IMG/VR virus record: IMGVR_UViG_3300003322_000356
Coordinates: 1-38,905 of that record
Length of the DNA: 38,905 nucleotides
Strand: one strand, 5' to 3'
Origin: a virus
Shown: one piece after another, positions 6,513 to 37,102 of the stretch
Numbering within the stretch: the stretch's first letter is position 1
How the letters are laid out: the number at the start of each line of letters is the position of its first letter
Made by a program: the position numbers and the translations under genes
The notes under the pieces: generated by a model
The model's database searches: none
Told to the model about the DNA's origin: nothing
Seen by the model: the letters and a program-made list of their open reading frames with translations, nothing else

Positions 6513-6980
6513 ATGAAGAAGGTATTTTCGATGTTTGCAAGCATTGTCTGCTTCGCAGTTCTGGCGGCGTGCGGCGGTCAGGCCAACGCGGCGCCGCTGA
6601 ATGAAGTGTTCACTGCCAGCCCGGCCACCACGCTGTTCTCCGTGAAGGATGCTGCGATTGTAGAGAAGGCAGCCGGCGGCATCAACGTCAGCACAGCTGT
6701 CGCGGTCGCCAATCCGGATGGCAGCTTCGGCGGCTATGCCAAATCGACGATCGCGTACTCGGACTCGACCGGCACGACCTGGAACAATTTCGTAGCCCAG
6801 GCGGCAGCGAACGGGTTCTTCAAGATCGGCTCGGCTAACAAGTACTACTCGGCCAAGTCGGCCGCCAGCGTGAACTGCCTGTCCAGTTCCTACACACAGT
6901 TCGTCTACGCCTTCGGCGCGGATGGCGCTGCGGATGCTGGTTGCGCAACGTTCCAGGCAGTAAAGGCGGTTTCCAACTGA
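6513..6980 (+). CDS. Small secreted lipoprotein downstream of the RT
   Basis: 155 residues. The N-terminus MKKVFSMFASIVCFAVLAAC has a basic start, a hydrophobic core and a lipobox (VLAAC), so cleavage before the Cys and lipid attachment are expected, followed by GGQANAAPLNEVF. The mature part is small, polar and Ala/Ser-rich with two further Cys (VNCLSS, AGCATF) that could form a disulfide. Ribosome site AAGGAG. It is the last gene before a terminator at 7000. An envelope lipoprotein in an early operon could alter the host surface or exclude other phages, but no family is recognised. Confidence 0.8.
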   Translation: MKKVFSMFASIVCFAVLAACGGQANAAPLNEVFTASPATTLFSVKDAAIVEKAAGGINVSTAVAVANPDGSFGGYAKSTIAYSDSTGTTWNNFVAQAAANGFFKIGSANKYYSAKSAASVNCLSSSYTQFVYAFGADGAADAGCATFQAVKAVSN

Positions 6981-6999
6981 ACGCATAATCTGTGAAAGA

Positions 7000-7023
7000 G
7001 GGCCCGCTTCGGCGGGTCCTTTA
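7000..7023 (+). terminator. Terminator after the lipoprotein gene
   Basis: Eight-pair stem GGGCCCGC/GCGGGTCC (one wobble) with a TTCG tetraloop, followed by TTT. It ends the DGR transcript or partly separates it from the integration genes. Confidence 0.75.
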
Positions 7024-7045
7024 AGACACTGAAAGCCGAGGACAT

Positions 7046-7477
7046 ATGATCAACCCACACGATCCATTCAACCAGCTTGGCCGCAAGGCTGCTCCCCATG
7101 GTGAACCGACGAATGATCCGGAGCAGGACGGCAAAGGCGAGGAGCCCGCGCAAGACGCCGAGGCGCCACGCCAGAAGAGAAAGTACACGCGCCGCGTGCC
7201 CCCAGCCACGAATCCTCAGAAGCCGGTAGCAAAACCGGAAGAACAGGAGCCGGAGCTAGTGGCCGCGATCTTCACGACTGGCGAGCTAACCATTTACGTT
7301 GGTGAAGATGTCATGCACCTGACGGTCACGCAGCGCGAGAAGCTGGAGCAGTTCCTGGGCGTCACAGCGCCGCGTGTGGAAGCCAGCCGGCCGCGTCGCA
7401 AGTGCAGGGTATGCCAGCAGCGCCGCGACTTGGACAAATTCGAAGGCGACAGCACGGTCTGCAAGGACTGTGAGTGA
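7046..7477 (+). CDS. Hypothetical protein with C-terminal zinc ribbon
   Basis: 143 residues. The N-terminal half is disordered, charged and Pro-rich, with a basic patch (RQKRKYTRR). A middle segment FTTGELTIYVGEDVMHLTVTQREKLEQFLG looks folded. The C-terminus has CRVCQQRRDLDKF..CKDC, two CxxC pairs typical of a small zinc ribbon. Probably a nucleic-acid-binding protein. It lies just upstream of the excisionase-like gene. Confidence 0.65.
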   Translation: MINPHDPFNQLGRKAAPHGEPTNDPEQDGKGEEPAQDAEAPRQKRKYTRRVPPATNPQKPVAKPEEQEPELVAAIFTTGELTIYVGEDVMHLTVTQREKLEQFLGVTAPRVEASRPRRKCRVCQQRRDLDKFEGDSTVCKDCE

Positions 7478-7488
7478 AGGAGCGAAGC

Positions 7489-7818
7489 ATGATCGATGCA
7501 AAGGCCGCGGCTGAGATGCTTGGCGTTGACCGGCGTACAATGTACGATCTGGCTGCACCGACCGGCCCCATTCCATGCTATCGGATGGGAACAAAATGCA
7601 TCCGGTTCGAAGAACAAGATATCCTTGATTACAAAGCAAAATGCCGATCCGTTACGATAAGCGCAACCGTCGCTGGCGATTTGAATTTAACAAGGTCATC
7701 CACGGCGAGCGTGTCCGTGCCTCAAAACTGCTTCCAGAAGCTTGGGGTCGTGACGAAGCCCAAGCGTTCGACCAAGCCGAAAGCGCCCGGCTCTACGGCG
7801 TTGCAACTGGTGCGATAA
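7489..7818 (+). CDS. Excisionase-like MerR/HTH_17 protein
   Basis: The ATG at 7489 is chosen because AAGGAGCGAAGC precedes it; a GTG 15 nt upstream is less likely. The N-terminal 50 residues (IDAKAAAEMLGVDRRTMYDL .. YRMGTKCIRFEEQDILDY) are a winged-helix of the HTH_17 type seen in phage Xis and DNA-binding adaptors. The last 59 codons overlap the integrase gene in another frame and look low in complexity, so only the first 50 or so residues may be conserved. Expected role: directing the integrase to excision, or regulating it. Confidence 0.7.
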   Translation: MIDAKAAAEMLGVDRRTMYDLAAPTGPIPCYRMGTKCIRFEEQDILDYKAKCRSVTISATVAGDLNLTRSSTASVSVPQNCFQKLGVVTKPKRSTKPKAPGSTALQLVR

Positions 7819-8600
7819 AGCCGCGCATCCTAATTCAGTCTGCGGTCGATATCTACGTTTTTTACCGCTGTCCCCACCTCAAAACAGGTGACGCCACCAT
7901 CAAGGAACTGGCGCTGATCCACGGGTACTATGACGGCCGATATCTGGACGAGCTGGCCGACGTGGCGAAGGAAATCACCGACGCACATCCTGAGTGGGCG
8001 CCCGCCACGCTGAAAGCCCGGCTTTCCTATCTGCGCGCGGCATGTAATTACGCCAAGGACGATCATGGTCTGGGCGACCGAAATGCGCAGTATAGGATGC
8101 CGATGCCGGTTGTCCGCAACGAGCGGCATTTCTACGAGGGACGGGACGCCATGATCAAGATTGCGCGTGCATGTCCGGAACGCGAGGCACGCGCACTGAT
8201 CCGGCTGGCGTTCTACTCGGGGATGCGCTTGGCTGAATGTTTGAGTCTGGGCAGGGAGGGGCAGATTCACGAGGATGGCTTTATCCTGGCCGATACCAAG
8301 AATGGCGACCGCAGGTTCGTTCCAATGCACCCGCGCGCGCGACCGCTGCTGAATTACCTGCCGTTCAGCATGAGCCGATCCTGGCTGACGAAGAAGATAC
8401 GGAGCGCAATGGACGCGGCAGGTTTCGCTAATCTACATTTTCATGACCTACGGCACAGCACGGCCAGCGAGATGGTGAACAACGGCGTGGAGCTGTACAC
8501 GGTGGGCGGTATCCTCGGCCACAAGGATAAGAAGACGACGCAGAGATATGCGCACCTGGCCCGCGGGACGCTGGCCGATGCGATCAAAAAGGTGGGGTAA
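7641..8600 (+). CDS. int: Tyrosine-recombinase integrase
   Basis: 319 residues. N-terminal arm-type binding domain (RYDKRNRRWRFEFNKV), a SAM-like core-binding region, then the catalytic domain with Arg in FYSGMRLAECLSL, the HDLRHSTASE box (H-x-L-R-H) and the active Tyr in GHKDKKTTQRYAH. Normal length for phage integrases that lack the long AP2 arm domain. Directly followed by the attP. It overlaps the excisionase-like gene at its 5' end, so the two are translated from one message at the end of the rightward operon. Confidence 0.96.
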   Translation: MPIRYDKRNRRWRFEFNKVIHGERVRASKLLPEAWGRDEAQAFDQAESARLYGVATGAIKPRILIQSAVDIYVFYRCPHLKTGDATIKELALIHGYYDGRYLDELADVAKEITDAHPEWAPATLKARLSYLRAACNYAKDDHGLGDRNAQYRMPMPVVRNERHFYEGRDAMIKIARACPEREARALIRLAFYSGMRLAECLSLGREGQIHEDGFILADTKNGDRRFVPMHPRARPLLNYLPFSMSRSWLTKKIRSAMDAAGFANLHFHDLRHSTASEMVNNGVELYTVGGILGHKDKKTTQRYAHLARGTLADAIKKVG

Positions 8601-8603
8601 AAA

Positions 8604-8633
8604 TGTGCGGATATTTTTGCCAGATATGCCGCG
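8604..8633 (+). repeat. Direct repeat left of attP
   Basis: Thirty bases beginning TGTGCGGAT, matching 25 of 30 positions of a second copy at 8836-8865 in the same orientation. The pair brackets the attP core (8718-8776). Such flanking repeats are the expected form of integrase arm-type binding sites. Confidence 0.6.
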
Positions 8634-8717
8634 AAATGGGCAAAAACCGCTTCATGCGCGCAGGAAATTGAACGGAAATTCAAATACTTGCATGCTGTGT
8701 GGATAGCGTGTGTAGAA

Positions 8718-8776
<59 letters not shown>

Positions 8777-8802
8777 TGAATTCAATGACTTACGTCGCAA
8801 AG

Positions 8803-8830
8803 AAAGCCGCCTCAACAGGGCGGCTTTTTT
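8803..8830 (+). terminator. Terminator after attP
   Basis: Stem AGCCGCC (8805-8811)/GGCGGCT (8819-8825), extended by AA/TT, then six T. It ends rightward transcription of int and, once integrated, possibly that of the rebuilt host tRNA. The opposite strand reads TTTCTTT after the stem, so it may also stop the leftward gene at 8869. Confidence 0.8.
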
Positions 8831-8835
8831 GTTAT

Positions 8836-8865
8836 TGTGCGGATGATTTTGCCATCTATGCTGCG
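8836..8865 (+). repeat. Direct repeat right of attP
   Basis: Second copy of the 30-base repeat at 8604-8633 (25/30 identical, same orientation), 59 bp past the attP core. Candidate integrase arm site. Confidence 0.6.
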
Positions 8866-8868
8866 GGC

Positions 8869-9171
8869 TTAGATATCCGTGATGGCAGCATGCCCGGCCG
8901 GCGGCGCGGATGCCGACCAGTCGAAGGCGGAGAAGTCAGGGAGGGTAATGCCGAGGTCGCGGGCGATGCGGCGCGCCAGCGCTACCGCTTCCACGAACGC
9001 GTCATGGGCTTTCGAAGAAGCCGCCCGATCCAGCTGCCGGATCGTAGCCTGGGAGGCGTCCCACCACGCGCGCAGGAACTGCACCAGCTCGCACAGCTCC
9101 TGAATTTCCGATTGCGCCGTTGCGCGCAACATATTTTGTTGACCCGATTGCAGCCCGGTCGTACTATCCAT
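8869..9171 (-). CDS. Hypothetical helical protein (100 aa)
   Basis: Start MDSTTGLQSGQQ chosen because GAAAGGAAACC lies just upstream; longer in-frame starts have none and would run through a terminator. Mostly alpha-helical (EIQELCELVQFLRAWW, KAHDAFVEAVALARRIARDL), without membrane segments. Last leftward gene before attP, so in the prophage it sits next to the chromosome, a usual place for genes expressed in the lysogen. No family recognised. Confidence 0.6.
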   Translation of the reverse strand: MDSTTGLQSGQQNMLRATAQSEIQELCELVQFLRAWWDASQATIRQLDRAASSKAHDAFVEAVALARRIARDLGITLPDFSAFDWSASAPPAGHAAITDI

Positions 9172-9204
9172 AAAGGTTTCCTTTCTTTGACTGGTTTGGA
9201 ATCC

Positions 9205-9244
9205 AAACCCCACAGCCGCCCTGAGAAGTTGCTGTGGGGTTTTT
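9205..9244. terminator. Strong hairpin terminator, probably two-way
   Basis: Perfect 12-pair stem AAACCCCACAGC (9205-9216)/GCTGTGGGGTTT (9231-9242). The plus strand continues with a five-T run; the minus strand has three T. It lies between the lysis operon end and the gene at 8869-9171. Confidence 0.7.
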
Positions 9245-9500
9245 CATGCGTGTTTCCATCGCACCAATACAGAATATCCCCGATTACCTCACTCTGGCAA
9301 ATCAGAACATTTTTACATCACTCGACAAAACGTCGATTTGAGGTAAATGAAAACAAGTTTTTGTTTTCAAAGCATATTCTGAGTCGACGAATTGTAGATT
9401 TCATCCTATATTCCTGCGATTTGAATATGCGAAACAATGTAAATTGCATTTGCAAATCTCAGATTCACATGAATTGTTAAGTTGTTCCGGCGCAACAGTT
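9245..9500. other. AT-rich non-coding stretch
   Basis: About 250 bases, markedly richer in A+T than the genome. Contains TCGAC-AAAAC-GTCGA (9322-9336), an 8-bp palindrome GAAAACAA-GTTT-TTGTTTTC (9349-9368), a GTCGAC at about 9383-9388 and repeated GAATATGC/ATTTGCAAAT-like words. No gene with support. It may hold a promoter for the leftward gene at 8869, the end of the lysis transcript or host-factor bending sites near attP. Confidence 0.5.
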
Positions 9501-10019
9501 TCATTTAGACAGGTTCTTGATGGTGTCGTCCTTGACCTTGTTGGCGCGTGTGGTGCCGAATTCGAAGCTGAACACCTGCTCCACCCAGCCCAGCGCGCGG
9601 CCGCAGATAAGGGTGATGGTGCCCTTGGCGAACTCGTTCATCTCGGTTTTCCAGATAACCACCAGCAGGCAGAAGGTAACCAATAGCACAGCGCCGGCCG
9701 CCAGCACGTTGGCGCGGTAGTTGATCAGCCCGGCCTTGGCCAGATCGGTGTCGCGCTTGCGGGCGTCCTGGGTATCGACCAGATAGGCCTTCTCCAGCTC
9801 AACCTGCATCGCACCTATGGCCTGCCGGAACTCCAGTACCTTATTCGGGTCGGCGTCGATGGTGGCCAGCGCTTCCTCGCCGCTGCTGGTGCCGGTGACG
9901 GCCTGCGCGACGCTCACGACGCGGTCGGCGACTTCCGCCGCTTTATCGCTGCCACTCATAAGCTTTATGATGCCCGGCACGAACTTGGCCAGGCCCATGG
10001 CGATAGTGATCGGGTCCAT
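9501..10019 (-). CDS. Three-TM holin-like protein
   Basis: 172 residues starting MDPITIAMGLAKFVPGIIKLMSG; the ATG overlaps the endolysin stop (TAATG). Resembles the 'holin of 3TMs' (gene-transfer-agent release) family: an N-terminal hydrophobic helix, a charged helical middle (ELEKAYLVDTQDARKRDTDLAKAG) and a C-terminal membrane part (ANVLAAGAVLLVTFCLLVV, KGTITLICGRALGWVEQVF). Presumed to permit endolysin release or act with the other small membrane proteins of the cassette. Last gene of the leftward late operon. Confidence 0.8.
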   Translation of the reverse strand: MDPITIAMGLAKFVPGIIKLMSGSDKAAEVADRVVSVAQAVTGTSSGEEALATIDADPNKVLEFRQAIGAMQVELEKAYLVDTQDARKRDTDLAKAGLINYRANVLAAGAVLLVTFCLLVVIWKTEMNEFAKGTITLICGRALGWVEQVFSFEFGTTRANKVKDDTIKNLSK

Positions 10020-10576
10020 TACGCGATCTCCACTCGGTTGAGCAGCCAGCCGTAGAAGAAGACTTCGTTCGCCTGGCGCTGCTCGGTCAGTTCCAGGTAC
10101 CGCGCGCCCTGAAGGCTGTTCAGGCCGCGCAGCAGCACCTTCTCGCCGGCCGCGCCGCGGTCGAACAAGTAGGCGCGCAGAGCACCGATAGTCTGCGGCC
10201 CGATGCGGCCGTCCACGCTGATGTCGGGATAGGTCTTGCCGGCGCGGTTCAGCGCGTTCAGCAGGCGCTGCAGCCACGGCCCTGGTACCGACAGGCCCAT
10301 GTTCACACCAGTGTCGAACAGCTCCTCGCCGATCGCCTGCGACAGTGCATAGACCAGGCTGAAGCCGGGTTCCTCGAAATTTTCCCGGCGGTAGATCTGC
10401 GCGGCGGTCGCGCGCGGCATATCGCGCATGGCACCCTGGTAGCCGGCACGCCGGGCCCTGGCCACAGTGATGCCCCACATGGTCTCGCCGCCGGCATCGG
10501 CCGGGTTGTTGCTGTAGCCGCCCTCCCGGCCGATCAGCTCATCGATCATTTGTTCGACGCTCTTGGGCATGATCAT
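10019..10576 (-). CDS. Endolysin, GH108 N-acetylmuramidase
   Basis: 185 residues. The N-terminus carries the family motif REGGYSNNPADAGGETMWGIT with the catalytic Glu at residue 18. A C-terminal peptidoglycan-binding part (ISVDGRIGPQTIGAL) follows. No signal peptide or SAR segment, so export should need the holin. Start coupled to the upstream holin-like gene (ATGA). Length typical for the family. Confidence 0.93.
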   Translation of the reverse strand: MIMPKSVEQMIDELIGREGGYSNNPADAGGETMWGITVARARRAGYQGAMRDMPRATAAQIYRRENFEEPGFSLVYALSQAIGEELFDTGVNMGLSVPGPWLQRLLNALNRAGKTYPDISVDGRIGPQTIGALRAYLFDRGAAGEKVLLRGLNSLQGARYLELTEQRQANEVFFYGWLLNRVEIA

Positions 10577-10821
10577 TCCTCCCCGGGCTCATTGTTGCGG
10601 TACGCGCGCCAGGTGCGCAGCAGCTTGATGACCTGCACCAGCAGCACGACGCAGCCCGTCATGAGGCCGACGGCGAGCGACGCGGTGCTGAGCCAGTCCT
10701 GCAGCAAGCCGAGCTTGTAGGCCCCGCCAACCCCACCGGCGCCGGCGGCGACCGCCGTGGCGATCTTGGGGTTAGCCGCAGCGCCTTCGATGACCCGCCA
10801 CGTGTTTTCTTGATCGTTCAT
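10573..10821 (-). CDS. Small membrane protein, holin candidate
   Basis: 82 residues with a polar N-terminus, an Ala/Gly-rich helix (IATAVAAGAGGVGGAYKLG), a strong membrane helix (LAVGLMTGCVVLLVQVI) and a basic C-terminal tail (KLLRTWRAYRNN). The size and layout fit a class II/III holin, and it is coupled to the endolysin gene by an ATGA overlap. Because two other membrane proteins lie nearby, which one is the true holin cannot be decided. Confidence 0.7.
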   Translation of the reverse strand: MNDQENTWRVIEGAAANPKIATAVAAGAGGVGGAYKLGLLQDWLSTASLAVGLMTGCVVLLVQVIKLLRTWRAYRNNEPGEE

Positions 10822-10844
10822 GAATCCGCCTTTTCAGTGACTTG

Positions 10845-11240
10845 TCAATTGCGGCCACCAGCGCCGCCGCGAAGTAGAGAAACCCCGTAATAATCAGCAT
10901 CGTTGCGGTCAGGTGTAGACAGTCGAATAACTTGTACATAGCTCAATCCCCACGTGAAAGTGTCAAAAAACACTGGCGGGGCATAGGCCAGATAAAGCCC
11001 CCATCCGAGGGCATTTGCGACGATGGAGACAATGCATAGGGTCTCCATGTCGTCACAGACCCGGCCTGCAAGCAGGTTCGGGCACAGCAATATCAAAAAC
11101 AGCTCACAGGCTGCGGCGCTCCCGTGAAACACGAACATGCCGAAATCGGTGTTGCTGACATCGGCAGTCGCCAAGGCATGCAGTAACGCGACCGCGAGCG
11201 AGACTGCCCCGAAAAGGGCACGGGAGCGCCAGGAATTCAT
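10845..11240 (-). CDS. Membrane protein of the lysis cassette (131 aa)
   Basis: Three or four hydrophobic segments: RALFGAVSLAVALLHALA, FHGSAAACELFLILLC, LCIVSIVANALGWGLYLAY and a weaker one near FDTFTWGLSYVQV. Start overlaps the upstream stop (ATGA at 11237-11240). It resembles small phage holin/antiholin-like membrane proteins by topology, not by a recognised family. Confidence 0.65.
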   Translation of the reverse strand: MNSWRSRALFGAVSLAVALLHALATADVSNTDFGMFVFHGSAAACELFLILLCPNLLAGRVCDDMETLCIVSIVANALGWGLYLAYAPPVFFDTFTWGLSYVQVIRLSTPDRNDADYYGVSLLRGGAGGRN

Positions 11241-11332: not shown

Positions 11333-11351
11333 CTCAACTTCCTTTCAAAGT

Positions 11352-11373
11352 AAAAAGCCGCCCGCAGGCGGCT
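11352..11373 (-). terminator. Leftward terminator between virion and lysis genes
   Basis: Stem AGCCGCC/GGCGGCT with loop CGCA (11356-11373); on the minus strand it is followed by five T (11356-11352). Lysis genes downstream probably rely on Q antitermination or partial readthrough. Confidence 0.8.
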
Positions 11374-11507: not shown

Positions 11508-11510
11508 GGC

Positions 11511-13625
11511 TTAACGCTCCTCTTCTCCCGGCAGGATGAACGCCGCCGGCGAAAGCACCAGACTGCGCGGGGCCGTCGGTATTGGCTGAACCGGTGCGCC
11601 AATCAGCGCCCGTGGTGCGCTCAGTGCACGGCCGGCCTGCTGCCCGATCACGATGTTCTGCAGCGGTTCGCCGATGGCGGCGCGGCCGAACGGAACCTTG
11701 CCAAGCAGCGCACTGCCGCCAATACGCTCCAGCAGGCCGCCGACGGCGCCAGCCGTATTCGAATTGTTCACCGCTGCACCAACTGGCTGCACCTGCTCGT
11801 AGCTGGCCACCCGGCCGACAGCCTTCAGGCGTGCAATTTCCTCCGGGTCGAAGAACAGCTTCAGCTTCTGGTCGCCGATGCCGCGCAGAGCCTTGTTGAA
11901 CGCCGATTGGCTGAAGTTCGCCACTTCATCTGCCGCGCCGCCGGTGGCCTGGTTCTTCAGGTACGCCGTCACCTGATCCTTTACCACCTGCAGCGCTTCC
12001 GGGTTGTCGCGTATCGCAGCCTTCAGCTGCGCCACATCCATGATGCTGGCCTTACTACCGTTGCCAGTGATGTACTGCTGCACGAACTTGTCCGGCTCCA
12101 TGCCGTCTCGGACCGCCTGCAGCGCGGGCGTGCGCTCCACGGTCTGCGCCCAGGCCCGATTCAGCTGGCGCGCCTTGTTGAAGGCGTCGATCGATTGCTG
12201 CCCGATATCCTGCCCGGCCTGCAAAGGCGTGTTCTCCAGCGCCTGACGCACCAGGCCAACGGCCTTGGCGGTCGAGCCATCGCCAGCGCGAGAGGCATCA
12301 CGCGCGGCCTCGGCCAGCCGCGTCTTGAATTGCTCGGCCACATCAACAGTGAAAGGGATATCGCCGGCGGCAGTACCGTTCAGCAGCTGGCGGATATCGG
12401 ACGGAAGTTTGCCTTGCAGGAGCTGATGCTTCAGAAGGTCGTCAGCCTCACGCGTGAATGCAGCTGGATCGAGGAACGCAGCCCGTCCCTGGCTGTCGCG
12501 CGCGGCTGCATAGGCCGTGTCGATTGCCGTCTTTGCCTGCTGGTTCCGCGCCGACAGCGCGCCCATGATGCGCTGCGCGGCATCGACCTGGCCGCCGGCC
12601 TGGGCTGCGCCGAGGTCGTTCAGGTTCTGCACCAGCGCGCGGTTATTCTGGTTCTGCACCTCGGCCAGCTGCTGCGCGGCCGGGTCGGTGCTGTTCGCGC
12701 CCACCTTGGCCAGGTTCTTCTGGCGAGTGACATCGGCCGGATTCAGCGTTAGGCTGGCGCGCGTCGGCGTCAGGCCTGTGAGCCGGTAGTCCGCCAGCCG
12801 ACGCACGGCATCGTCCGACAGGTTCGGGCTGATCTGCAGTGCCTGCTGTACGTCGCCGCGGATGCTGCGCGCCACGTCAGCGGGCAGATCGGCTAGCTTC
12901 AGGCCGCTGTCCTGGAGAGCATTGTTGATGGTCACGTCGATCTGCACCGGCTGCTGGGCGGCTCGCGCGCTGGCAGCGCCGCGCACGGCATTGGCGGCAC
13001 GCTGAGCCCCCCCGACAGCGAACGGCGCGGCCACGCCGGCAATGAGCGACGCGGCCAACTGCGAACCTTCGTTGCCGCCAGTCTCGCGGGTGTAGCCGCC
13101 AGCCGCCCCAGCTGCGCCAGCGCTGGCCAGCTGCTGCCCAGGGTTCGATGCCAGCACGCGGCCCACGTTCGCTGCCGTCCCTGTGCCGCGCGTAGCCAGC
13201 GCAGCACCTGCGCCGATCGGAAGCGCGCCACTGGCCACCAGCCGCGCGGCATCGCCCACCAGGCGCTCCTGCGCGGTTTGCGGCTTCGGAAGGCCGACGA
13301 CATTCGCCAGCGCCTCGCCGGAACCGCCCTGGATGTTGGCGCCCAGCGCGTTCAGGCCGGCACGGAACGGAGCTGCCAGCGTATCCAGCGCGCCGCCCAC
13401 GCCCTCCAACGCATAGCGGCCAGCCAGTCCCACCTGGCGCGGAGCGTCCGAGATGAAGTCGTTCAGCTGCTGGCCGAACGGCTTTGCGGGGGCCTCGGTC
13501 TTCGGTGCGGCGGCCATCTTAAACGAACGCTGCGCATAGGCTAGTACCTCATCCTGGCTGGCGCCGTCTGGCGCGGTGACATCGTAGCTCTTGCCATCGG
13601 GAGCGGTGATTCGGTACGTTGGCAT
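11511..13625 (-). CDS. Internal virion/ejection protein (704 aa)
   Basis: The N-terminus PTYRITAPDGKSYDVTAPDG with EVLAYAQRSF is a module common at the start of large phage virion proteins. Next comes a Gly/Ala-rich hydrophobic region (about 80-210, LVASGALPIGAGAAL, SLIAGVAAPFAVGG) that could interact with membranes, then a long helical Gln/Ala-rich body. Layout and place (after tail nozzle and two other internal-protein-like genes) suit a DNA-ejection protein that crosses the envelope on infection. No enzymatic motif seen. Confidence 0.75.
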   Translation of the reverse strand: MPTYRITAPDGKSYDVTAPDGASQDEVLAYAQRSFKMAAAPKTEAPAKPFGQQLNDFISDAPRQVGLAGRYALEGVGGALDTLAAPFRAGLNALGANIQGGSGEALANVVGLPKPQTAQERLVGDAARLVASGALPIGAGAALATRGTGTAANVGRVLASNPGQQLASAGAAGAAGGYTRETGGNEGSQLAASLIAGVAAPFAVGGAQRAANAVRGAASARAAQQPVQIDVTINNALQDSGLKLADLPADVARSIRGDVQQALQISPNLSDDAVRRLADYRLTGLTPTRASLTLNPADVTRQKNLAKVGANSTDPAAQQLAEVQNQNNRALVQNLNDLGAAQAGGQVDAAQRIMGALSARNQQAKTAIDTAYAAARDSQGRAAFLDPAAFTREADDLLKHQLLQGKLPSDIRQLLNGTAAGDIPFTVDVAEQFKTRLAEAARDASRAGDGSTAKAVGLVRQALENTPLQAGQDIGQQSIDAFNKARQLNRAWAQTVERTPALQAVRDGMEPDKFVQQYITGNGSKASIMDVAQLKAAIRDNPEALQVVKDQVTAYLKNQATGGAADEVANFSQSAFNKALRGIGDQKLKLFFDPEEIARLKAVGRVASYEQVQPVGAAVNNSNTAGAVGGLLERIGGSALLGKVPFGRAAIGEPLQNIVIGQQAGRALSAPRALIGAPVQPIPTAPRSLVLSPAAFILPGEEER

Positions 13626-18143: not shown

Positions 18144-18145
18144 GG

Positions 18146-18403: not shown

Positions 18404-19747
18404 CTATGTCTTAGAAATGCCGTAAACGCGAACTTGCCCGTTTGCCTGGAAATTCCCTGCACCCCATAACAACCGGAAACCAGAAATTGCATTCGCAGAT
18501 ACATAATCCGCTACGGAATACAGCCCCAGCATCGATCCAGCCGTTGGCGACATCACTCCGCTGACGACCACTACTTTGGGGCGAGATGCACTCACGTCGT
18601 TCACGTTGGCGACAAAAATTTGGAATGATCCACCAACACCGACCGCCCAATTACTTGAAGCAGACAAGTCAATCAATGAACTACTCGTAGAGGGAAAAGT
18701 AGTGCCCGCACTGAATTCCTGGAAACCATATTTGCTGCCGCTATCCACAACGCCAGCATTGGCAAACCGTAAATTTAGATGGCTCGCTGTACCAGGCGTG
18801 ATCTGGTCACCTATGATGAGATATTCATCGAATGTGGAACTGAAAACGTTAAGGAAATCAATGTTCGCAACGGCCGTTACATTTACGGTGGCAAGCAGCA
18901 CAAGTGCCGGCGGAGTTACCGTAACTGCAGCGCCGCTAGCCTTGTTGTAGCTGATGACTCGAACCGCACCGGAACCTTCGCCGCGCACAATCGCCCGATC
19001 TCCTACAGCGGTTGTGATGTTTGATGCACCGGGCAGGTCCAGGTTAGCGCTATGCGTCAGAGTCAGGATGCCATCGAACACCAGCGTGCGCTCGGCACCA
19101 GCGGGAAGGGTCATTGCGGTGATGGTCGTTGTGCCTGTGACATGTAGCAGGTTTCCCGTGACCACTGTGTTCTGCAGGTCAATGGTCGCCGCACTGGGGA
19201 CATTCGCTCCCTTGCTCTCGTCCACTGCATAACCGCTGAAAGTGCGCGTGAATGCTGCGACGGCACCGGTCGAGGCGAGAAAGCCTAAGCTCTGCGCTGG
19301 CAGCGCGGAGCTGAACGCCAGTTGGTCCACATAGTTCTTCGTGACCGAGAACAGCCGGAAGTTCGTGCCGTCGAATGTCGCGCGATATTTCTGACCAGGC
19401 ACCAGATCATTTGCAGCCAAGGCCTGCCCAGAAACGGAAAGAAGGCTCACGGCGCCAAGGCCCGAAACGTTCATCGTGGCTGCGCCTGTGTTCGCAATGA
19501 CAGGAGAAAACACAATGGACATGTTGTCCACGTAGGAGGGAAGCGGCGGAGTGGGTAGCAGCGTATATGCATTCGCGACACCACCGTTCGCACCGCCTAC
19601 GACCACCGCGCCCGTCAGGCCTGCAAAGCAGTTCTGCAGGACGGATTTCACCAGGCGAAGATGGTCATCACCTTGTAGCTTCCTATCCGACCCTGAAGGG
19701 TTCGCGGAAACAAGGTTGCCGATGTAATTGCCAGTTTCGAGTGCCAT
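18404..19747 (-). CDS. Tail fibre protein, likely receptor-binding (447 aa)
   Basis: Start MALETGNYIGNLVSANPSGS; this N-terminus with RKLQGDDHLRLVKSVLQNCF is a widespread virion-attachment module of podovirus tail fibres. The body is beta-rich (NTGAATMNVSGLGAVSLLS, DLQNTVVTGNLLHV) and the C-terminus (PTAGSMLGLYSVADYVSANA) looks like a globular tip. Notably this protein has no variable repeat, so the DGR does not diversify the apparent receptor-binding protein. Codon use toward the 3' end is less G+C-rich than in neighbouring genes, suggesting an exchanged tip. Confidence 0.82.
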   Translation of the reverse strand: MALETGNYIGNLVSANPSGSDRKLQGDDHLRLVKSVLQNCFAGLTGAVVVGGANGGVANAYTLLPTPPLPSYVDNMSIVFSPVIANTGAATMNVSGLGAVSLLSVSGQALAANDLVPGQKYRATFDGTNFRLFSVTKNYVDQLAFSSALPAQSLGFLASTGAVAAFTRTFSGYAVDESKGANVPSAATIDLQNTVVTGNLLHVTGTTTITAMTLPAGAERTLVFDGILTLTHSANLDLPGASNITTAVGDRAIVRGEGSGAVRVISYNKASGAAVTVTPPALVLLATVNVTAVANIDFLNVFSSTFDEYLIIGDQITPGTASHLNLRFANAGVVDSGSKYGFQEFSAGTTFPSTSSSLIDLSASSNWAVGVGGSFQIFVANVNDVSASRPKVVVVSGVMSPTAGSMLGLYSVADYVSANAISGFRLLWGAGNFQANGQVRVYGISKT

Positions 19748-19748
19748 A

Positions 19749-20387
19749 TCAGCATGTACCTCCATCGACGCGAACCCGCATCGGGCCGGTCTTGTTAAAT
19801 TCGACCAAGTTGGCGCCATCGATCGCATCGAGGAAGCGCAGATTGAAGCTGTCGCGTAATGGAAGGTTGCGGGAATAATCCGCCGCCTCTACCAGCGTCG
19901 CGAACAGGTAGACGTTCGGCCACTTCGCAAGGATGCTGTTCAGCGGTGCCAGATCGGTCAGATTCGGGACATCGGCGCGGTACATGGCGCTCAGGGTGTA
20001 GATGGCGTCCGGCGTCGGGCCCAGATAGAGCTGCTCGCCAATCACGGTGTAGCAGCGCGGACGCCCGGCACTTGCCGGCGAAAACGAATAGTTGAATTCG
20101 TCCGGGTCCATGTAGTCAAGATTGCGTTCGACGCCTGGAATCGACAGCGATTTGACGGCCAACAGATCAGTGGGCAGCGTCGCATATTCCTGGCCGGCGA
20201 CCGTGGTAATCGATCCCACGAAGTCGGAAACGCGCTCCTGAAGCCTTGTGCGGATGCGAATCTCTGCCAGGTAGATCAGGTCAGGAATCGTACCGGTCAG
20301 GTCATTTCGATGCATCCAGCTGGCCACGAGATCCTTCAACCAGGTATAGTCCCGCGTCGTCGAGACGCTCTGCACGACAATGGTCAT
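19749..20387 (-). CDS. Head-tail adaptor protein
   Basis: 212 residues. Helical N-terminus (TWLKDLVASWMHRNDL, IPDLIYLAEIRIRTRLQ), then ATLPTDLLAVKSLSI, RPRCYTVIGEQLYLGPTPDA and WPNVYLFATLVEAADY. This order matches the phage adaptor family (tail tubular protein A / SU10 adaptor type) binding under the portal. Start coupled to the previous stop (ATGA). Confidence 0.83.
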   Translation of the reverse strand: MTIVVQSVSTTRDYTWLKDLVASWMHRNDLTGTIPDLIYLAEIRIRTRLQERVSDFVGSITTVAGQEYATLPTDLLAVKSLSIPGVERNLDYMDPDEFNYSFSPASAGRPRCYTVIGEQLYLGPTPDAIYTLSAMYRADVPNLTDLAPLNSILAKWPNVYLFATLVEAADYSRNLPLRDSFNLRFLDAIDGANLVEFNKTGPMRVRVDGGTC

Positions 20388-21328: not shown

Positions 21329-21654
21329 CAGATTCTCCCTGGCCAGATGCGGAAGGCTGCGTTGTCCGGGTTGTTCACCAGGCGCCGGATATGGTCCTCG
21401 TTGGCCATGAACTCGTGGAACGTGATGTTCTGCTCATTGCAGTAGCGCTCGATGATCACGTCCGGTATGCAGGCCGCATGACGCATCTCGCTACTGCCGT
21501 GGAAGCCCTCGTTATGGCGCGCCTTGGCGTAATCGACGATCGGCGTGCAGTCCTGAATGCGTTCGAACGTGATCAGGGCGCCATGCACATGGATGCGGGT
21601 ATGCACGGCGTCTTTCGCCCGCTTTTGCATCCGGGCTTGCAGGACTGGATTCAC
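21328..21654 (-). CDS. Hypothetical phage protein (108 aa)
   Basis: GTG start in a GTGA overlap with the collagen-like gene; its TGA overlaps the next ATG. Compact mixed protein with His/Cys residues (HVHGALITFERIQDC, MRHAACIPDVIIERYC). Metal binding is possible. Found inside the structural operon, but no family is recognised. Confidence 0.6.
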   Translation of the reverse strand: MNPVLQARMQKRAKDAVHTRIHVHGALITFERIQDCTPIVDYAKARHNEGFHGSSEMRHAACIPDVIIERYCNEQNITFHEFMANEDHIRRLVNNPDNAAFRIWPGRI

Positions 21655-22499
21655 AGCAGAACCTCCTGTCCTGGGCGTGCGGTGAAGGTCGGCGTGCCGG
21701 TGGTGTTCTCCGTAACCAGCTGCGCCCAGGCGCCGGCCGGGATGACGCCGGTCAGTACACTGGTGCCGTTGGCGTTGAGCGTGACAGTAAGTCCGAGCGC
21801 CTGCGTCAGGCCGTTCGACGCGCGGATAACTTCCTGCGTGCCAGTGGTGCAGCTGCTGTCCGTGTAGACACGCAGGTAGACAGTGCCAACCTGGCCGCTA
21901 GCGAGCGTGGAGCTGACAGCGATATCCACGCCATAGGCCACCATGGCATCGCGACTGGCCGACACCTGGAAGCATGTGTTCAGCGCACGCGTCTGATAGC
22001 TGAAACTGCGAGATGGTGCTGTACCGGCTGGGCCTTGCGGCCCCTGCGGGCCGATCAGCGTTGCCAACCATTGTGCTTCGGTACCGGGAAAACCATTGTC
22101 CACGGCAACCTGATAGGCGGATCGACCATCGTTTCCTTGAGCACCCATGCTGCCTTGGGGGCCGGCCGTGCCGTCGTTACCCTGCGGTCCTTGAATACCC
22201 TGTATGCCTTGTACACCCTGTGGTCCCTGTGGCCCTTGTGGACCAACAGTCAGCGGGACACTGAGCACGCCGCCAGAGAGCTGCAGGCCGGCACCGATGC
22301 GATGGCAGGCTGGGACTGCGCCCGTGCTGGTAGGCCCCATGGAAGCCAAGCAGTCATCCGAGCTATCCGGCTGCATGAACTTGCTCAGGTATGCAGTATT
22401 GGCGGCGTTACGCTGGTCCAAGCGCCATGCATAGGGTGTCTGGGCTTGCGCCGCGCAGCTTACGGCGAGTAGGAGCAGAGTGGTGATGAACTTCTTCAT
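21651..22499 (-). CDS. Collagen-like protein with signal peptide (282 aa)
   Basis: Start MKKFITTLLLLAVSCAAQAQ is preferred over a longer in-frame start since it gives a clear Sec signal peptide with an AQA cleavage site. Residues about 90-150 hold Gly-X-Y runs (GPQGPQGPQGVQGIQGIQGP, then GPQGSMGAQGNDG) and a later GPQGPQGPAG, separated by a short globular DNGFPGTEAQWLATL unit that is common between phage collagen repeats. The C-terminal about 110 residues are a beta domain with two Cys. Collagen-like fibres are common in phages, but an N-terminal signal peptide is odd for a virion protein assembled in the cytoplasm. Confidence 0.8.
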   Translation of the reverse strand: MKKFITTLLLLAVSCAAQAQTPYAWRLDQRNAANTAYLSKFMQPDSSDDCLASMGPTSTGAVPACHRIGAGLQLSGGVLSVPLTVGPQGPQGPQGVQGIQGIQGPQGNDGTAGPQGSMGAQGNDGRSAYQVAVDNGFPGTEAQWLATLIGPQGPQGPAGTAPSRSFSYQTRALNTCFQVSASRDAMVAYGVDIAVSSTLASGQVGTVYLRVYTDSSCTTGTQEVIRASNGLTQALGLTVTLNANGTSVLTGVIPAGAWAQLVTENTTGTPTFTARPGQEVLL

Positions 22500-22509
22500 G
22501 GTGGCTCCC

Positions 22510-22818
22510 TTAGCAGTCTTCCAGCGGCACCACGTTGACGGTGCCGGCGGCCGTGTCCTGAATGGCGGCCACATGGGTGACGTTGCGCGGCACGTCCAGG
22601 ATCAGATCGTCGCCCGGCACCACCATGGCGTCGGTAGCGAGTGCAGTCAGCCCAGCAATGCCGATGCGCACGTGGGCGTTGGCGGTAGCGGTGATTCGGA
22701 TATAGCGTGGTACTTCGCCGCTGGACGCGGGCGGAATGGGGGCACTCACGGAGGCCGCGCCGGTCGTCAGGTTGATGCCGGTGGCCGTGATCACCATGCT
22801 GGCTCGGTTGCGGTACAT
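22510..22818 (-). CDS. Small structural protein (102 aa)
   Basis: Beta-rich (MVITATGINLTTGAASVS, RYIRITATANAHVRIGIAGL, VNVVPLEDC) with an ATG preceded by GTAGGAGAG. Lies between the decoration-like gene and the collagen-like gene. It resembles small phage structural proteins of unknown role. Confidence 0.62.
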   Translation of the reverse strand: MYRNRASMVITATGINLTTGAASVSAPIPPASSGEVPRYIRITATANAHVRIGIAGLTALATDAMVVPGDDLILDVPRNVTHVAAIQDTAAGTVNVVPLEDC

Positions 22819-32357: not shown

Positions 32358-32389
32358 AAATTTCCCTTTGTTTAACGTTTTTTGTAAAT

Positions 32390-32850: not shown

Positions 32851-32854
<4 letters not shown>
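32390..32854 (-). CDS. Hypothetical early protein (154 aa)
   Basis: The N-terminal half has Cys/His residues (YLCTAYGCPLMGVMCAST, WFCSLHYG) in a possible zinc site; the C-terminal half is helical (PENVRQWINRIEPEFATILA). Common in replication modules of Burkholderiales phages, without assigned function. ATGA overlap with the replication gene. Confidence 0.65.
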
Positions 32855-33896
<1,042 letters not shown>

Positions 33897-33900
<4 letters not shown>

Positions 33901-34478
33901 GCGTGATTGGCCTCGCATCGTTCCGCCAACTGAACTAGCCAGTTCGCCAGCCGGGTAGGGGTTTGCTCGCGCTCTGCCTTCGATCTCGAAGGCAGTCTCG
34001 GGTAAGACTTCGAAGGCCTGACGCAATGACTGGGAGAGCCTTCACGATGCGGCAGCAATGGGATTTTGTCGGGATGGACGCCGACAATGTACAGCCATGT
34101 GCGTTTTTCGGCGCGATGGCCGAAGTGAAACTGCTGAATCACCATAGTCCACCCGCCATAAGCATCAGGGGCACGACCTGGCAGAGGAAGCATCTGATCC
34201 GCCCATAGAGTAGATTCGGCGGGATGTTCCAGAACACCGCCATGGCCTCTGACCATGGCCACGGCAAAGCGTGCAAGGTCTTTCTCATCATCCCTTGGCA
34301 ATGCGAATTGACGTAGGCGGCCCCACGCTCTGCATGGAGGGTGGGCCACCACAGGAATGCCACCTGGGAATTTCCTCGCATCTCGCTCGGCGTCCCAAGC
34401 ATCGACACGCAACATCCGCTTGTAGACCGAATCAGGACGGACAAAGAGCGCAGCGACCAGAGGGGGGAGATCAGTCAT
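33897..34478 (-). CDS. Conserved phage protein, possibly methyltransferase-like (193 aa)
   Basis: Contains VVAHPPCRAWGRLRQFA, HGGVLEHPAESTLW, GGWTMVIQQFHFGHRAEKRT and WLYIVGV. This set is found in a family of phage proteins of unknown role; PPC.xW recalls the Cys-containing motif IV of cytosine-C5 methyltransferases, and GH.A.K.TWLYI recalls a target-binding part, but no SAM motif I is evident. DNA modification is therefore only a possibility. Confidence 0.65.
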
Positions 34479-34912
34479 GCCGCCCTCCAGTCGCCATAGA
34501 AGGCCTGGAGCAGTGGATCGCGCGTGACGCCCAGCTGCACGGCCGGCACATAGTTCACGCGGCGCATCATGCGGTCTTCTTCACCGGGGAATTTCAGGCG
34601 CGGGCGGCCGCGGGTGGAACCAGGCTTGGCGCGACTCTTGCGCGGGCCAAAGACGGGGACAGGCACCGGCAGCGGCTGGGCGCCCGGCAGCAGCTGATAG
34701 AGCTTCGGCGCGTTGCCTTTCTCGCGTGGAAGCACTTCCATCAGATGCATATCGGTGAGCCGGTGCAGGTACATCACCGAGCTCTTCTCGTTCAGGTTCA
34801 GCTGGTCACACACGAAGCGCACGGCCAGGGGCCCATGCTCGCGCGCCAGGTCGATGATCTTGTTCATGCGGCTGATGCCCAGATTGGCGCCGGAGTAAGT
34901 ACGGCCTTTCAT
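34475..34912 (-). CDS. Winged-helix-like DNA-binding protein (145 aa)
   Basis: Start MKGRTYSGANLGISRMNKII at 34912 in an ATGA overlap. Residues 15-65 (IIDLAREHGPLAVRFVCDQL, EKSSVMYLHRLTDMHLMEVL) form a winged helix-turn-helix. A Pro-rich linker and a basic stretch (RKSRAKPGSTRGRPR) follow. Probable early regulator or replication accessory protein. Confidence 0.68.
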   Translation of the reverse strand: MKGRTYSGANLGISRMNKIIDLAREHGPLAVRFVCDQLNLNEKSSVMYLHRLTDMHLMEVLPREKGNAPKLYQLLPGAQPLPVPVPVFGPRKSRAKPGSTRGRPRLKFPGEEDRMMRRVNYVPAVQLGVTRDPLLQAFYGDWRAA

Positions 34913-35097
34913 ATCCGTTCCTCCAGCGATTGCACTTCTAGCCGGGCCACTTCGCAGCGGTCCCATTCTTCCTGCCAGGTGGGCAGCGCTGCAGCGTGCC
35001 AGTTCATGCCGTGGTCGTCACGGCTGCGGCCGGCGGCGTGGGCTGCGCGCGCCTTGGCGCGGATGATGTCGATGGTGATGATCGATTGCACGGTCAC
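34909..35097 (-). CDS. Small hypothetical protein (62 aa)
   Basis: GTG start at 35097 inside a GTGA overlap with the frameshifted HTH gene; reads TVQSIITIDIIRAKARAAHA and ends VQSLEERI. Contains a short Trp-rich segment (LPTWQEEWDRCEVA). Coupled on both sides. Unknown role. Confidence 0.6.
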   Translation of the reverse strand: MTVQSIITIDIIRAKARAAHAAGRSRDDHGMNWHAAALPTWQEEWDRCEVARLEVQSLEERI

Positions 35098-35307
35098 GCC
35101 TCCAGCTGCTGGCGGATGAAGGCAACCGGGAACAGCACCGGCTCCAGTTCGTGCACGCGCAAGATCATGGCCGGGCCCATCGTCAAGCGGCCGTGACGCA
35201 GCTTGCTGACCACCGGCGGCGCAACGCGCAACAGACGGGCCAGATGCGCGTCTGTTCTTGCACACCATCTGTGCAGACACTTCGTCAAGCAGGGTATTGG
35301 CTGACAT
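35094..35307 (-). pseudogene. HTH regulator gene with a one-base insertion
   Basis: The start MSANTLLDEVSAQMVCKN at 35307 has a GAGGAG site. Translation then leaves frame, while the rest, DAHLARLLRVAPPVVSKLRH to PVAFIRQQLEA, is open in the next frame up to 35094. Removing one A on the minus strand at about 35253 joins them as ..CKNDAHLARLL.., the normal sequence of this small phage HTH family. Either a real mutation, a sequencing error or an expression switch. The intact protein would be 70 residues, Cro-like in size, third in the leftward early operon. Confidence 0.75.
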
Positions 35308-35365
35308 GTACTTCTCCTCTTTTTATGCTCCGGGGATGGGGGAGCGGGTTCGTGTGTGGTGGAAA

Positions 35366-35668
35366 TCAGTCGAAAGACAGCTGCTCGGGGGTTTCAAGCT
35401 GATTCAGGTGATCGCGGGTCAGATTGAGCAGCGCGCTGATCGTGTCCGACGAGTAGCACTTCATTTCAGCCGGCACGATCTTCAGTCCGAGTGCGGAGAC
35501 AGCCGCGCAGAACTTCTCCAGGTCCGTGTTCACGAACCGCGACACCGTCGATTCCGATGTCTCCAGCCGCTCGGCCAGCGTCTTCTGCCCCAGCGACGCA
35601 ATGCGCTGCAACATGAGACTGTGATATTTGCGTGATTTTTCAGCGTCAGCAGCCGATAGTGGATTCAT
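35366..35668 (-). CDS. CII-like transcription activator (100 aa)
   Basis: Residues 18-55, LMLQRIASLGQKTLAERLET then SESTVSRFV, match the helix-turn-helix of lambda CII-type regulators, followed by an oligomerising helical end. In the CII position directly after cro. It would control establishment of lysogeny by activating repressor or integrase promoters. The weak ribosome site upstream may allow sensitive control. Confidence 0.75.
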   Translation of the reverse strand: MNPLSAADAEKSRKYHSLMLQRIASLGQKTLAERLETSESTVSRFVNTDLEKFCAAVSALGLKIVPAEMKCYSSDTISALLNLTRDHLNQLETPEQLSFD

Positions 35669-35700
35669 GGCATCACCAGTTTTGTTTTGGTTAAGGATGT

Positions 35701-35919
35701 TTAAGCAGCATGGGCGCGCGGCCGGTACATTTCCGCGCAGTCTTTGGGAGTGACGGCGCCGGCACTGGCCCTTTCGATCTCAAGGGCGTAGTCGAGCGTG
35801 ACCCGAGTGACCCCGCGAACCCACTGGCTGACAAGGGCCTGGCTTGCTGGTGGGATCAGACTTTGACCAAATTCGCCCTGGCTGCTGCCGGACTGCTTCA
35901 GGTGTTCTTCGAGATGCAT
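35701..35919 (-). CDS. Cro/YdaS-like repressor (72 aa)
   Basis: MHLEEHLKQSGSSQGEFGQS then ALVSQWVRGVTRVTLDYALE: a small HTH of the Cro/YdaS antitoxin-like type. First gene leftward from the immunity region, divergent to the S24 repressor, with three operator-like palindromes between them. Expected to turn down the repressor and early promoters during lytic growth. Confidence 0.8.
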   Translation of the reverse strand: MHLEEHLKQSGSSQGEFGQSLIPPASQALVSQWVRGVTRVTLDYALEIERASAGAVTPKDCAEMYRPRAHAA

Positions 35920-35938
35920 GGGGGAACCTTTCGGATAT

Positions 35939-36016
35939 GAGCAATGCTTCTATTATCTGGATTCTACAGCATGAGCAATGCTTTTCAAGATGTTGCCACC
36001 AAAAAAAGTAATGCTT
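35939..36016. promoter_or_regulatory. Immunity operators O1, O2 and O3
   Basis: Three 11-bp near-palindromes: GAGCAATGCTT (35939-35949), GAGCAATGCTT (35973-35983) and AAGTAATGCTT (36006-36016), spaced 34 and 33 bp apart (AAGCA-N-TGCTT consensus). Their place between the divergent cro-like and repressor genes is typical for a CI operator set. Two more copies (37063-37073 and 37087-37097) lie on the VP promoter. Confidence 0.8.
35961..35988 (-). promoter_or_regulatory. Leftward early promoter (pR-like)
   Basis: Minus-strand -35 TTGAAA (35988-35983), 16-bp spacer, -10 TAGAAT (35966-35961). Operator O2 fills most of the spacer and O1 lies just past the start site, so bound repressor would block it. 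It drives the cro-cII-replication-Q operon. Confidence 0.68.
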
Positions 36017-36023
36017 TTAGAAT
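35993..36023 (+). promoter_or_regulatory. Repressor promoter (pRM-like), possibly giving leaderless mRNA
   Basis: -35-like TTGCCA (35993-35998), 19-bp spacer with O3 inside, -10 TAGAAT (36018-36023). Start would fall at or next to the ATG at 36031, which has no ribosome site. Lambda cI from pRM is leaderless in the same way. Confidence 0.5.
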
Positions 36024-36030
36024 GGCAAAT

Positions 36031-36747
36031 ATGAAACGACGTGAACTTGATGACATCGAACTGGCGGAGGCGGCGCGATTACGCGCAGCCTGGGAGGCAT
36101 ATAAGGCGGCTAACGCGGGTGCTACTCAGGGCTGGCTTGCGGCCGAATCGGGTTTGGGAACCCAGGGCGCCGTGAGTCAATATCTGCGGGGCGTCATCCC
36201 TCTGAACCTCGAAAGTCTCATGGCTATCTCTCGGGTGCTCGGCATCGATCCGGCCACGATAAGCAGCCGCTTGGCAGCAAGAGTTCACGGCGTGCGCGCT
36301 GTCGAAATAGCGGATCCTGAAAACCCGGAACTGATAAAGATTCAAAAAGTGAAACTCAAGCTCTCAGCCGGCATCATGGGCTTCCAGACCGAGCCTGATC
36401 GCCACGAAGGCGGCATTGCGACCGTACCCAGGCGTTGGGTCGAAAAAAATGAATACATTCCGGAGCGGCTACTGGCCCTAGAAATTAAAGGGGAGAGCAT
36501 GGAGCCAGCTCTGTACGCCGGCGACACGGTGATCGTCAATACAGCAGATACGAGGCCGATAGATGGTGGCGTCTATGCGGTGAACTATGAGGGCGAAGCT
36601 GTAATCAAGCGCCTGGTTCGTGACCATGGTATGTGGTGGCTTTCCTCGGACCATTTCGACCAGCGCAAATACTCTCGGAAACGCTGCGAAGGCGACATGT
36701 GCATCATTGTTGGTAGGGTTGTACGAAAGGAAAGCGAGAAGATATGA
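36031..36747 (+). CDS. CI-type repressor with S24 peptidase domain (238 aa)
   Basis: ATG 36031 (MKRRELDDIELAEAARLRAA) is chosen since upstream in-frame starts would overlap the operators. N-terminal HTH: GATQGWLAAESGLGTQGAVS. Cleavage site Ala113-Gly114 in LSAGIMG. Catalytic Ser156 in KGESMEPAL and Lys193 in AVIKRL. It should maintain lysogeny and undergo RecA-stimulated self-cleavage on DNA damage. Operators of the same sequence flank this gene and sit on the VP/DGR promoter. Confidence 0.92.
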   Translation: MKRRELDDIELAEAARLRAAWEAYKAANAGATQGWLAAESGLGTQGAVSQYLRGVIPLNLESLMAISRVLGIDPATISSRLAARVHGVRAVEIADPENPELIKIQKVKLKLSAGIMGFQTEPDRHEGGIATVPRRWVEKNEYIPERLLALEIKGESMEPALYAGDTVIVNTADTRPIDGGVYAVNYEGEAVIKRLVRDHGMWWLSSDHFDQRKYSRKRCEGDMCIIVGRVVRKESEKI

Positions 36748-37007
36748 ATTACTTAAAGCACTGGAAAGAGCTCCTCTGGATGCTATTGGCATGGCAAATC
36801 ACGGCCTTCTTTATACTTGCCATCACTGGGTTCGATACGGCGGTAGGTGAGCTGGTTGCATTGGGACTGGTCTATGGCCAGCAGATACTGAGCGAGCTAA
36901 CGGCCATCAGGAAGCAACTGAACGACCTTGAATTTGATCTTAAGGATCAGGCCAAGGCAACTTCACGCACAGAGGATGCAGTCTACCGACTGCACAACAT
37001 CGAGTAA
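36744..37007 (+). CDS. Membrane protein co-expressed with the repressor (87 aa)
   Basis: ATGA overlap with the repressor stop. MNYLKHWKELLWMLLAWQIT, one or two hydrophobic helices (LLAWQITAFFILAI, ELVALGLVYGQQI), then a charged coiled tail (LTAIRKQLNDLEFDLKDQ). Being in the lysogenic operon it should be present in lysogens: a candidate superinfection-exclusion protein. Confidence 0.7.
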   Translation: MNYLKHWKELLWMLLAWQITAFFILAITGFDTAVGELVALGLVYGQQILSELTAIRKQLNDLEFDLKDQAKATSRTEDAVYRLHNIE

Positions 37008-37026
37008 AAGAGCTTCATCCAACTGC

Positions 37027-37050
37027 AACCCGCTTCGGCGGGTTTTTTTT
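37027..37050 (+). terminator. Strong terminator after the immunity genes
   Basis: AACCCGC-TTCG-GCGGGTT followed by six further T. It insulates the repressor operon from the VP/DGR promoter immediately downstream. Confidence 0.93.
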
Positions 37051-37062
37051 CGACAAAAATAT

Positions 37063-37102
37063 AAGCAATGCTCTTGACAGAATAAAAAGCAACGCTAATA
37101 AT
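37063..37102 (+). promoter_or_regulatory. VP/DGR operon promoter with two repressor operators
   Basis: -35 TTGACA (37074-37079), 17-bp spacer, -10 AATAAT (37097-37102): near-consensus sigma-70. Operator-like AAGCAATGCTC (37063-37073) touches the -35 and AAGCAACGCTA (37087-37097) covers the spacer and the first -10 base. They match the immunity operators, so CI binding should silence this pL-like promoter in the lysogen. VP2 starts about 30 nt after the presumed start site. Confidence 0.8.

Follow-up and report, generated by a model that had tools for sequence, protein, structure and literature searches.

Can the template RNA of a diversity-generating retroelement (DGR) be a translated mRNA? 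In the literature (e.g. PMC8867640), DGR template RNAs are usually taken to be non-coding. The question is raised by the DGR of the IMG/VR virus record IMGVR_UViG_3300003322_000356 (38,905 bases, linear class), which is called the window here. The DGR is complete and comprises one template, two targets with scorable variable repeats (VRs) and a third paralogous target whose VR was lost at the record ends. The first-pass annotation had recognized a complete DGR with one template, and the template repeat (TR), VR1, VR2, the reverse transcriptase (RT) and the MutS-like/Avd partner are all confirmed here; it did not notice that the template is probably translated or what the MutS-Avd fusion signifies. 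We consider it very likely that the window represents a temperate phage with an active DGR, that its Avd is fused to MutS domain I, and that the template RNA is translated as the 5' portion of the RT coding sequence; for the templating steps a model is proposed.

Fifty-five distinct elements, the window counted among them, were compared. The loci on viral contigs were collected with the RT (17 loci) and with the MutS-Avd protein (55 loci), the contigs being partly shared between both sets, and 12 loci came from bacterial genomes, mainly of Betaproteobacteria (e.g. Duganella, Pseudoduganella, Solimicrobium, Aromatoleum and Pseudothauera). The closest relative of the window is L004 (the same as L033), and the element L065 is truncated by a contig end. 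Coordinates given below refer to the plus strand of the window unless stated otherwise.

The putative translated leader occupies 5181..5501. Its ATG overlaps the stop codon of the MutS-Avd gene as ATGA at 5181, preceded by AAGGTG, and the frame is open across the TR and the spacer into the RT. The ATGA overlap is present in 55/55 elements. The last MutS-Avd codon specifies six different amino acids and its third base is always A, a base that fills 12% of the other third positions of the gene. In 48 of the 55 elements the frame continues into the RT without interruption, and the distances from the ATG to the RT core (306, 315, 318, 321, 324, 327 and 333 nucleotides) are all multiples of three. 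An RT start at TTG 5334, the sole in-frame start after the TR in the window, was rejected because it is not conserved, and 12 of the 48 elements have no ATG, GTG or TTG at all between the TR and the RT core. According to the ratio of nonsynonymous to synonymous differences (pN/pS) in 24 independent pairs, the value for the spacer is 0.72 (0.60-0.83) when read in the RT frame, compared with 0.93 and 0.90 for the other two frames. The pN/pS of the TR follows the frame of the target gene (0.36), which validates the method. These sequence data strongly support a predicted translation that starts at the ATGA overlap and continues in frame via the TR and the folded spacer. The template RNA would then form the 5' portion of the RT coding sequence. 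In L048, a frameshift (approximately 10149-11065) interrupts the RT reading frame, and the element is otherwise intact.

In five elements the leader frame enters another gene in place of the RT. The leader of L023 and L024 runs in frame into a protein that carries an H-NS C-terminal domain in the L024 copy; that of L063 runs into a Dam-type adenine methylase, that of L066 into a protein without a Pfam match, and that of L077 into a protein with phage homologues that carry the annotation PAPS reductase. Free-standing homologues begin 3-6 codons upstream of the matched part for the L077 gene, and 8-9 codons upstream of it for the L066 gene. Thus, the L077 passenger, and probably the L066 passenger too, lost its own start. 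The L063 passenger has an in-frame ATG near the expected start. With all four kinds of passenger, the RT has its own ATG, again as an ATGA over the passenger stop, exactly at the usual junction of leader and RT. In the RT tree the passenger-bearing elements lie within one 12-member group (support 92/87), interspersed with ordinary ones; L063 and L077, which are sisters, have different passengers. These gene-swap exceptions provide the strongest evidence for a template that appears to be translated. L028, in which the leader leads into a Bro-N gene, was excluded from the gene swaps because the Bro-N gene has its own ATG and the RT is not adjacent.

The gene that ends at the leader (4339..5184, 281 residues) had been called a MutS-like/Avd partner, and this assignment is borne out by Pfam, PHROGs and a predicted structure. 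According to Pfam, residues 37-106 match MutS_I above the cut-off and residues 191-275 match bAvd weakly; in PHROGs the C-terminal half matches Avd (E 2.6e-5). The AlphaFold model built from 54 sequences (pLDDT 79) supersedes an earlier, poor model from nine sequences (pLDDT 58). Its residues 27-130 match MutS domain I (Taq MutS, Z 12.1, 23% identity; human MutSbeta, Z 12.7), and the fold matches include mismatch-bound entries. Residues 168-279 match the Avd of a DGR ribonucleoprotein (8ub8, Z 14.9, 2.0 Å over 110 residues); a middling Z is easily reached by helical bundles, yet Avd entries are at the top of the list, consistent with PHROGs. At the level of the predicted structure, the Avd gene is confirmed as a fusion of the mismatch-recognition domain of MutS with Avd. 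When the MutS-Avd profile was searched against the sequences of solved structures, the matches were all insignificant; the model-based match supersedes this search. A tblastn search with the MutS-Avd protein gave no match in 50,697 phage records. A MutS-like DGR accessory with MutS domain I, 'MSL', was reportedly described by Wu et al. in NAR in 2018.

The fusion is kept in 54/54 aligned sequences. The Phe-x-Glu mismatch motif was located by alignment with MutS of the host genomes; HHalign of the fusion profile against host MutS gave a weak score, and it served solely for placing the motif. The stacking Phe is invariant (54/54), and the Glu is replaced by His in 52 sequences and by Gln in two; the window has FxH in place of FxE (F55, H57). 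Within its 281 residues the protein has no clamp or ATPase domain, Pfam detecting just MutS_I and Avd. Thus, among the characteristics of mismatch-repair MutS, the fold of domain I is present, and the intact motif and the clamp and ATPase domains are not. The domain may engage the mismatch-rich heteroduplex of cDNA and VR. It may also be unrelated to mismatches and act as a nucleic-acid-binding scaffold that guides Avd-RT to the template RNA or to the VR hairpin. The presence of domain I alone and the His found in 52 of the 54 sequences favor the scaffold, whereas the invariant Phe and a fold that is that of MutS domain I, mismatch-bound entries included, argue against it. We regard the scaffold as a serious possibility, somewhat short of an even chance.

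For the leader, the alternative is an ordinary DGR in which the open frame through the TR and the spacer is incidental, reflecting GC-rich sequence, shared ancestry and structured RNA, and in which the RT starts at a weak or non-standard codon beside its core. Several observations weigh against translation of the template and against an action of the MutS domain on mismatches. The leader peptide is weakly conserved, the confidence limits of its pN/pS touch the other frames, and constraint on the RNA structure could contribute to the signal. The GC-rich DGRs of Bordetella phage BPP-1, Magia and phiARM81mr also have an open frame via the TR, and the annotated RT of BPP-1 starts from a downstream ATG. 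Openness alone is thus weak proof, and it was dropped as a sufficient criterion of translation. By composition, a spacer is open by chance with a frequency of approximately 0.3 per element, and the elements share ancestry. Near-cognate CTG/ATT codons precede the core in many relatives. In the MutS domain, the motif Glu is lost to His, as described above. An incidental frame, however, is difficult to reconcile with the ATGA of all 55 elements despite the varying last amino acid of Avd, with spacer lengths that are all multiples of three, and with the 12 elements that have no ATG, GTG or TTG after the TR. It is also at odds with four kinds of foreign gene joined in frame to the leader, of which at least the PAPS-reductase-like one is joined where its free-standing homologues begin. 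We consider the incidental frame improbable and prefer the translated leader.

The 3' end of the TR and the spacer (5306..5501) form a structured RNA. In an alignment of 45 spacers, the consensus has 38 pairs, 24 of which show compensatory changes. The spacer cells are paired in 96.7%, compared with 87.6% after shuffling, and none of 500 shuffles equalled the observed value. When the pairing partners were slid by 1-3 columns, no more than 10 pairs with compensatory changes remained. The TGACC (5321-5325) of the initiation-of-mutagenic-homing sequence of the template (IMH*) pairs with a near-invariant GGTCG (5379-5383). As TGACC is absent from the VRs, the pairing is template-specific. An Rfam scan of the window gave no match. 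In BPP-1, the spacer recruits bRT-Avd, and an internal adenine primes the cDNA (PMC12875486). By analogy, we infer that the spacer of the window has the same role.

The TR (5211-5322), delimited by TR/VR comparison, ends at the TGACC boundary of IMH*. In VR1 (4144-4255) as in VR2 (37736-37847), 20 of the 29 adenines of this 112-nucleotide repeat are changed, and all 83 other bases agree with the TR. In both VRs together, G replaces the adenine 28 times, T 9 times and C 3 times. The first-pass annotation had counted 21 differences over 115 positions in each VR, all at TR adenines, with 30 changes to G, 9 to T and 3 to C among the 42. The restriction to adenines holds for the 20 sites, whereas the 21st (5323) belongs to the IMH*/IMH boundary, and the tally is corrected to that given above when it is left out. 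At this site, A>C at 5323 is paired with C>A at 5324 in both VRs, so that GCTGACC of the TR becomes GCTGCACC in the VR. As the pair of changes is identical in both VRs, it is a fixed difference between IMH* and IMH and not a product of mutagenesis. The IMH GCTGCACC occurs in both scorable VRs and at the 3' end of target 3, and the TR carries the IMH* GCTGACCC.

Among 99 distinct VRs of the relatives, 1,525 of 2,471 TR adenines are changed (882 to G, 425 to T and 218 to C), compared with 16 of 8,617 other positions; chance is thereby excluded. An earlier proposal, that polymorphism should be confined to TR adenines, was tested on near-identical contigs and held in every pair. L036 and L083, from different metagenomes, differ at 8 of 18,768 positions, all of them TR-adenine sites of a single VR, and at 0 of 18,544 positions elsewhere. 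Two more pairs differ at 30 and 23 TR-adenine sites of the VRs and at no other VR site. Adenine-limited diversification is therefore continuing in nature among the relatives. For mutagenic retrohoming in vivo, these VR-confined differences are indirect evidence only. A search of the window with the TR matched only the TR itself and the two VRs, and nothing in the collagen-like and other tail-fibre genes (21651-22574 and 18404-19828, minus strand). Since these genes have no VR, host recognition may not be the target of the diversification.

Target 1 (3372..4265, 297 residues) and target 2 (37141..37857, 238 residues, containing VR2) are putative FGE/C-type-lectin-like proteins. All three targets match sulfatase-modifying-factor families in PHROGs (2889 with E 8e-28 for target 1; 2889 and 9572 for target 2, which was identified as an open reading frame). 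A Pfam FGE-sulfatase match, sought as a sign of the C-type-lectin fold of variable proteins, is seen for target 1 alone, at an E value of 5e-4 just under the cut-off. Target 3 had been described as split by the window ends. The gene is genuine, and it is not merely split. Its 5' part (38264..38905, 214 residues, 83% identical to an intact relative) stops with the record at the 5' border of VR3, the last bases being ...GACTGGTCGGGC. The gene resumes at 1..33 as ACATCGGGTTCCGCTGCACC..., which holds the 3' end of VR3 with the IMH, followed by the stop codon. According to the alignment on VR2, 91 nucleotides of VR3 are absent between the two halves, and VR3 is for this reason not scorable in the window. 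In the L004 orthologue, 83% identical, the VR is intact and is changed at 21 adenines and nowhere else. At least two paralogous genes of the FGE/C-type-lectin-like kind are diversified from one TR at template adenines only, and the third is a target by position and orthology.

The targets lie on the same strand as cI, RecE/RecT, the DGR and the integrase, and the virion genes are on the opposite strand. Relatives with longer flanks have 1-4 targets in the same early/lysogeny region. This placement argues, though not conclusively, against the targets being virion proteins. The contigs of L042 (38 kb) and L012 (31 kb) also start within a VR; the locus start of L062 inside a VR is a retrieval edge and was excluded as a contig end. 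Assemblies probably break at sites where many VR haplotypes coexist, and such breaks may serve as an indicator of activity. A relic, with VRs that owe their diversity to past activity and a DGR that no longer functions in the window, is very improbable: the window is indeed a single consensus sequence, but the RT, Avd, TR and spacer are intact, VR1 and VR2 have accumulated no non-adenine differences, close relatives differ in VR haplotype only, and the window and two other contigs break within a VR, as expected from mixed VR haplotypes in a sample.

Hairpins with stems of 9-10 base pairs follow all three targets: 4290..4313 after VR1 (10 base pairs, loop GTAA), 37883..37903 after VR2 (9 base pairs) and 45..65 after VR3 (9 base pairs), approximately 35 nucleotides from the VRs. 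AGG and ATA are the other two loops. No hairpin was found after the TR. In the published consensus, the hairpin or cruciform lies 4-34 base pairs downstream of the VR, has the loop GRNA, and is needed in BPP-1 (PMC3240598). The hairpins of the window agree with such downstream hairpins, with slight deviations in distance and loops.

The RT core (5502..6461) matches RVT_1 (E 3.5e-22) and PHROG 1423 (E 9e-98), and DGR RTs were among the phage relatives recovered with it. The motifs noticed at first reading, IGNLSSQ (6060-6080) and YVDD (6156-6167), agree with the xGxxxSQ and YxDD of DGR-type RTs. The 84-kb contig of L010 has a second, unrelated DGR-like RT (31% identical; 12006-12806, minus strand), which is encoded on the other strand approximately 4 kb away from the first one, and L064 also has such an RT. 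Immediately 3' of the RT of the window, a 155-residue lipoprotein-like gene (6513-6980) contains the lipobox-like LAACGG. The element had been extended to 6980, which includes this gene. As tblastn gave no match to it in the relatives L004-L020, it is probably outside the DGR.

The DGR resembles that of BPP-1 (mtd-avd-TR-brt) in the order Avd-TR-spacer-RT, in adenine-specific TR/VR differences, in IMH/IMH*, in the hairpin after the VR and in the structured spacer, which binds RT-Avd in BPP-1 (PMC3240598, PMC12875486). It differs in that the RTs are approximately 32% identical, a MutS domain is lacking in the Avd of BPP-1, and the annotated brt begins at an ATG beyond the TR and the spacer. Moreover, the three FGE-like targets of the window lie in the early/lysogeny region, away from the tail genes. 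The 'group 3' of DiGReF, in which the TR overlaps the RT open reading frame, is a precedent for a TR inside the RT reading frame (PMC3521204). That survey noted the overlap as a layout only, whereas here translation is backed by the conserved ATGA coupling, frame-preserving indels and gene swaps. The arrangement of one template with several paralogous targets, to which attention had been drawn at first, is seen here, but DiGReF had already recorded it for 24 DGRs (PMC3521204) and another survey for 271 of 948 (PMC6642488), with no essential difference from the window.

In the four distant IMG/VR DGRs L015-L018 (RT 32-36% identical), an open reading frame of 142-144 residues, an ordinary length for Avd, occupies the position of Avd, its stop overlaps the RT start as ATGA, and the TR is open in the RT frame. 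The TR nearly abuts the RT core in these elements, unlike in the window, and the loci gave no match to the MutS-Avd query. As the ATGA coupling lies directly upstream of an open TR, the arrangement may extend beyond the clade. In L017 and L018, upstream of the RT (8001), the RT frame reads the TR in the target's own frame. The N-terminus of such an RT would bear an unmutated copy of the variable stretch.

In the proposed mechanism, RT-Avd would bind the spacer on its own mRNA, and cDNA would be primed at the TR/spacer junction. The TR would be copied mutagenically, and the cDNA would then convert the VRs. As ribosomes must leave the template before reverse transcription, translation and templating would compete. 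In some relatives the template RNA would make up the 5' portion of the coding sequence of a swapped-in gene whose own start is lost. A further-reaching proposal, which we regard as rather unlikely as a whole, is that the template of the clade is an obligatorily translated mRNA whose TR is read out of frame as an N-terminal extension of the RT or the passenger. Ribosome transit against RT-Avd binding would switch one transcript between enzyme and mutagenic cDNA, and the MutS domain would shield or steer the heteroduplex against host mismatch repair.

As first stated, the finding adds another member to a known kind of DGR; the leader that appears to be translated and to swap genes, together with the MutS-Avd fusion, makes the variant new. 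The fusion physically joins hypermutation to a mismatch-recognition fold that normally guards against it. With a translated, covarying template throughout the lineage, one RNA would be a protein code, the code of the target in another frame, the template of the RT and a folded structure that binds the RT, and the division of one transcript between translation and reverse transcription becomes directly testable.

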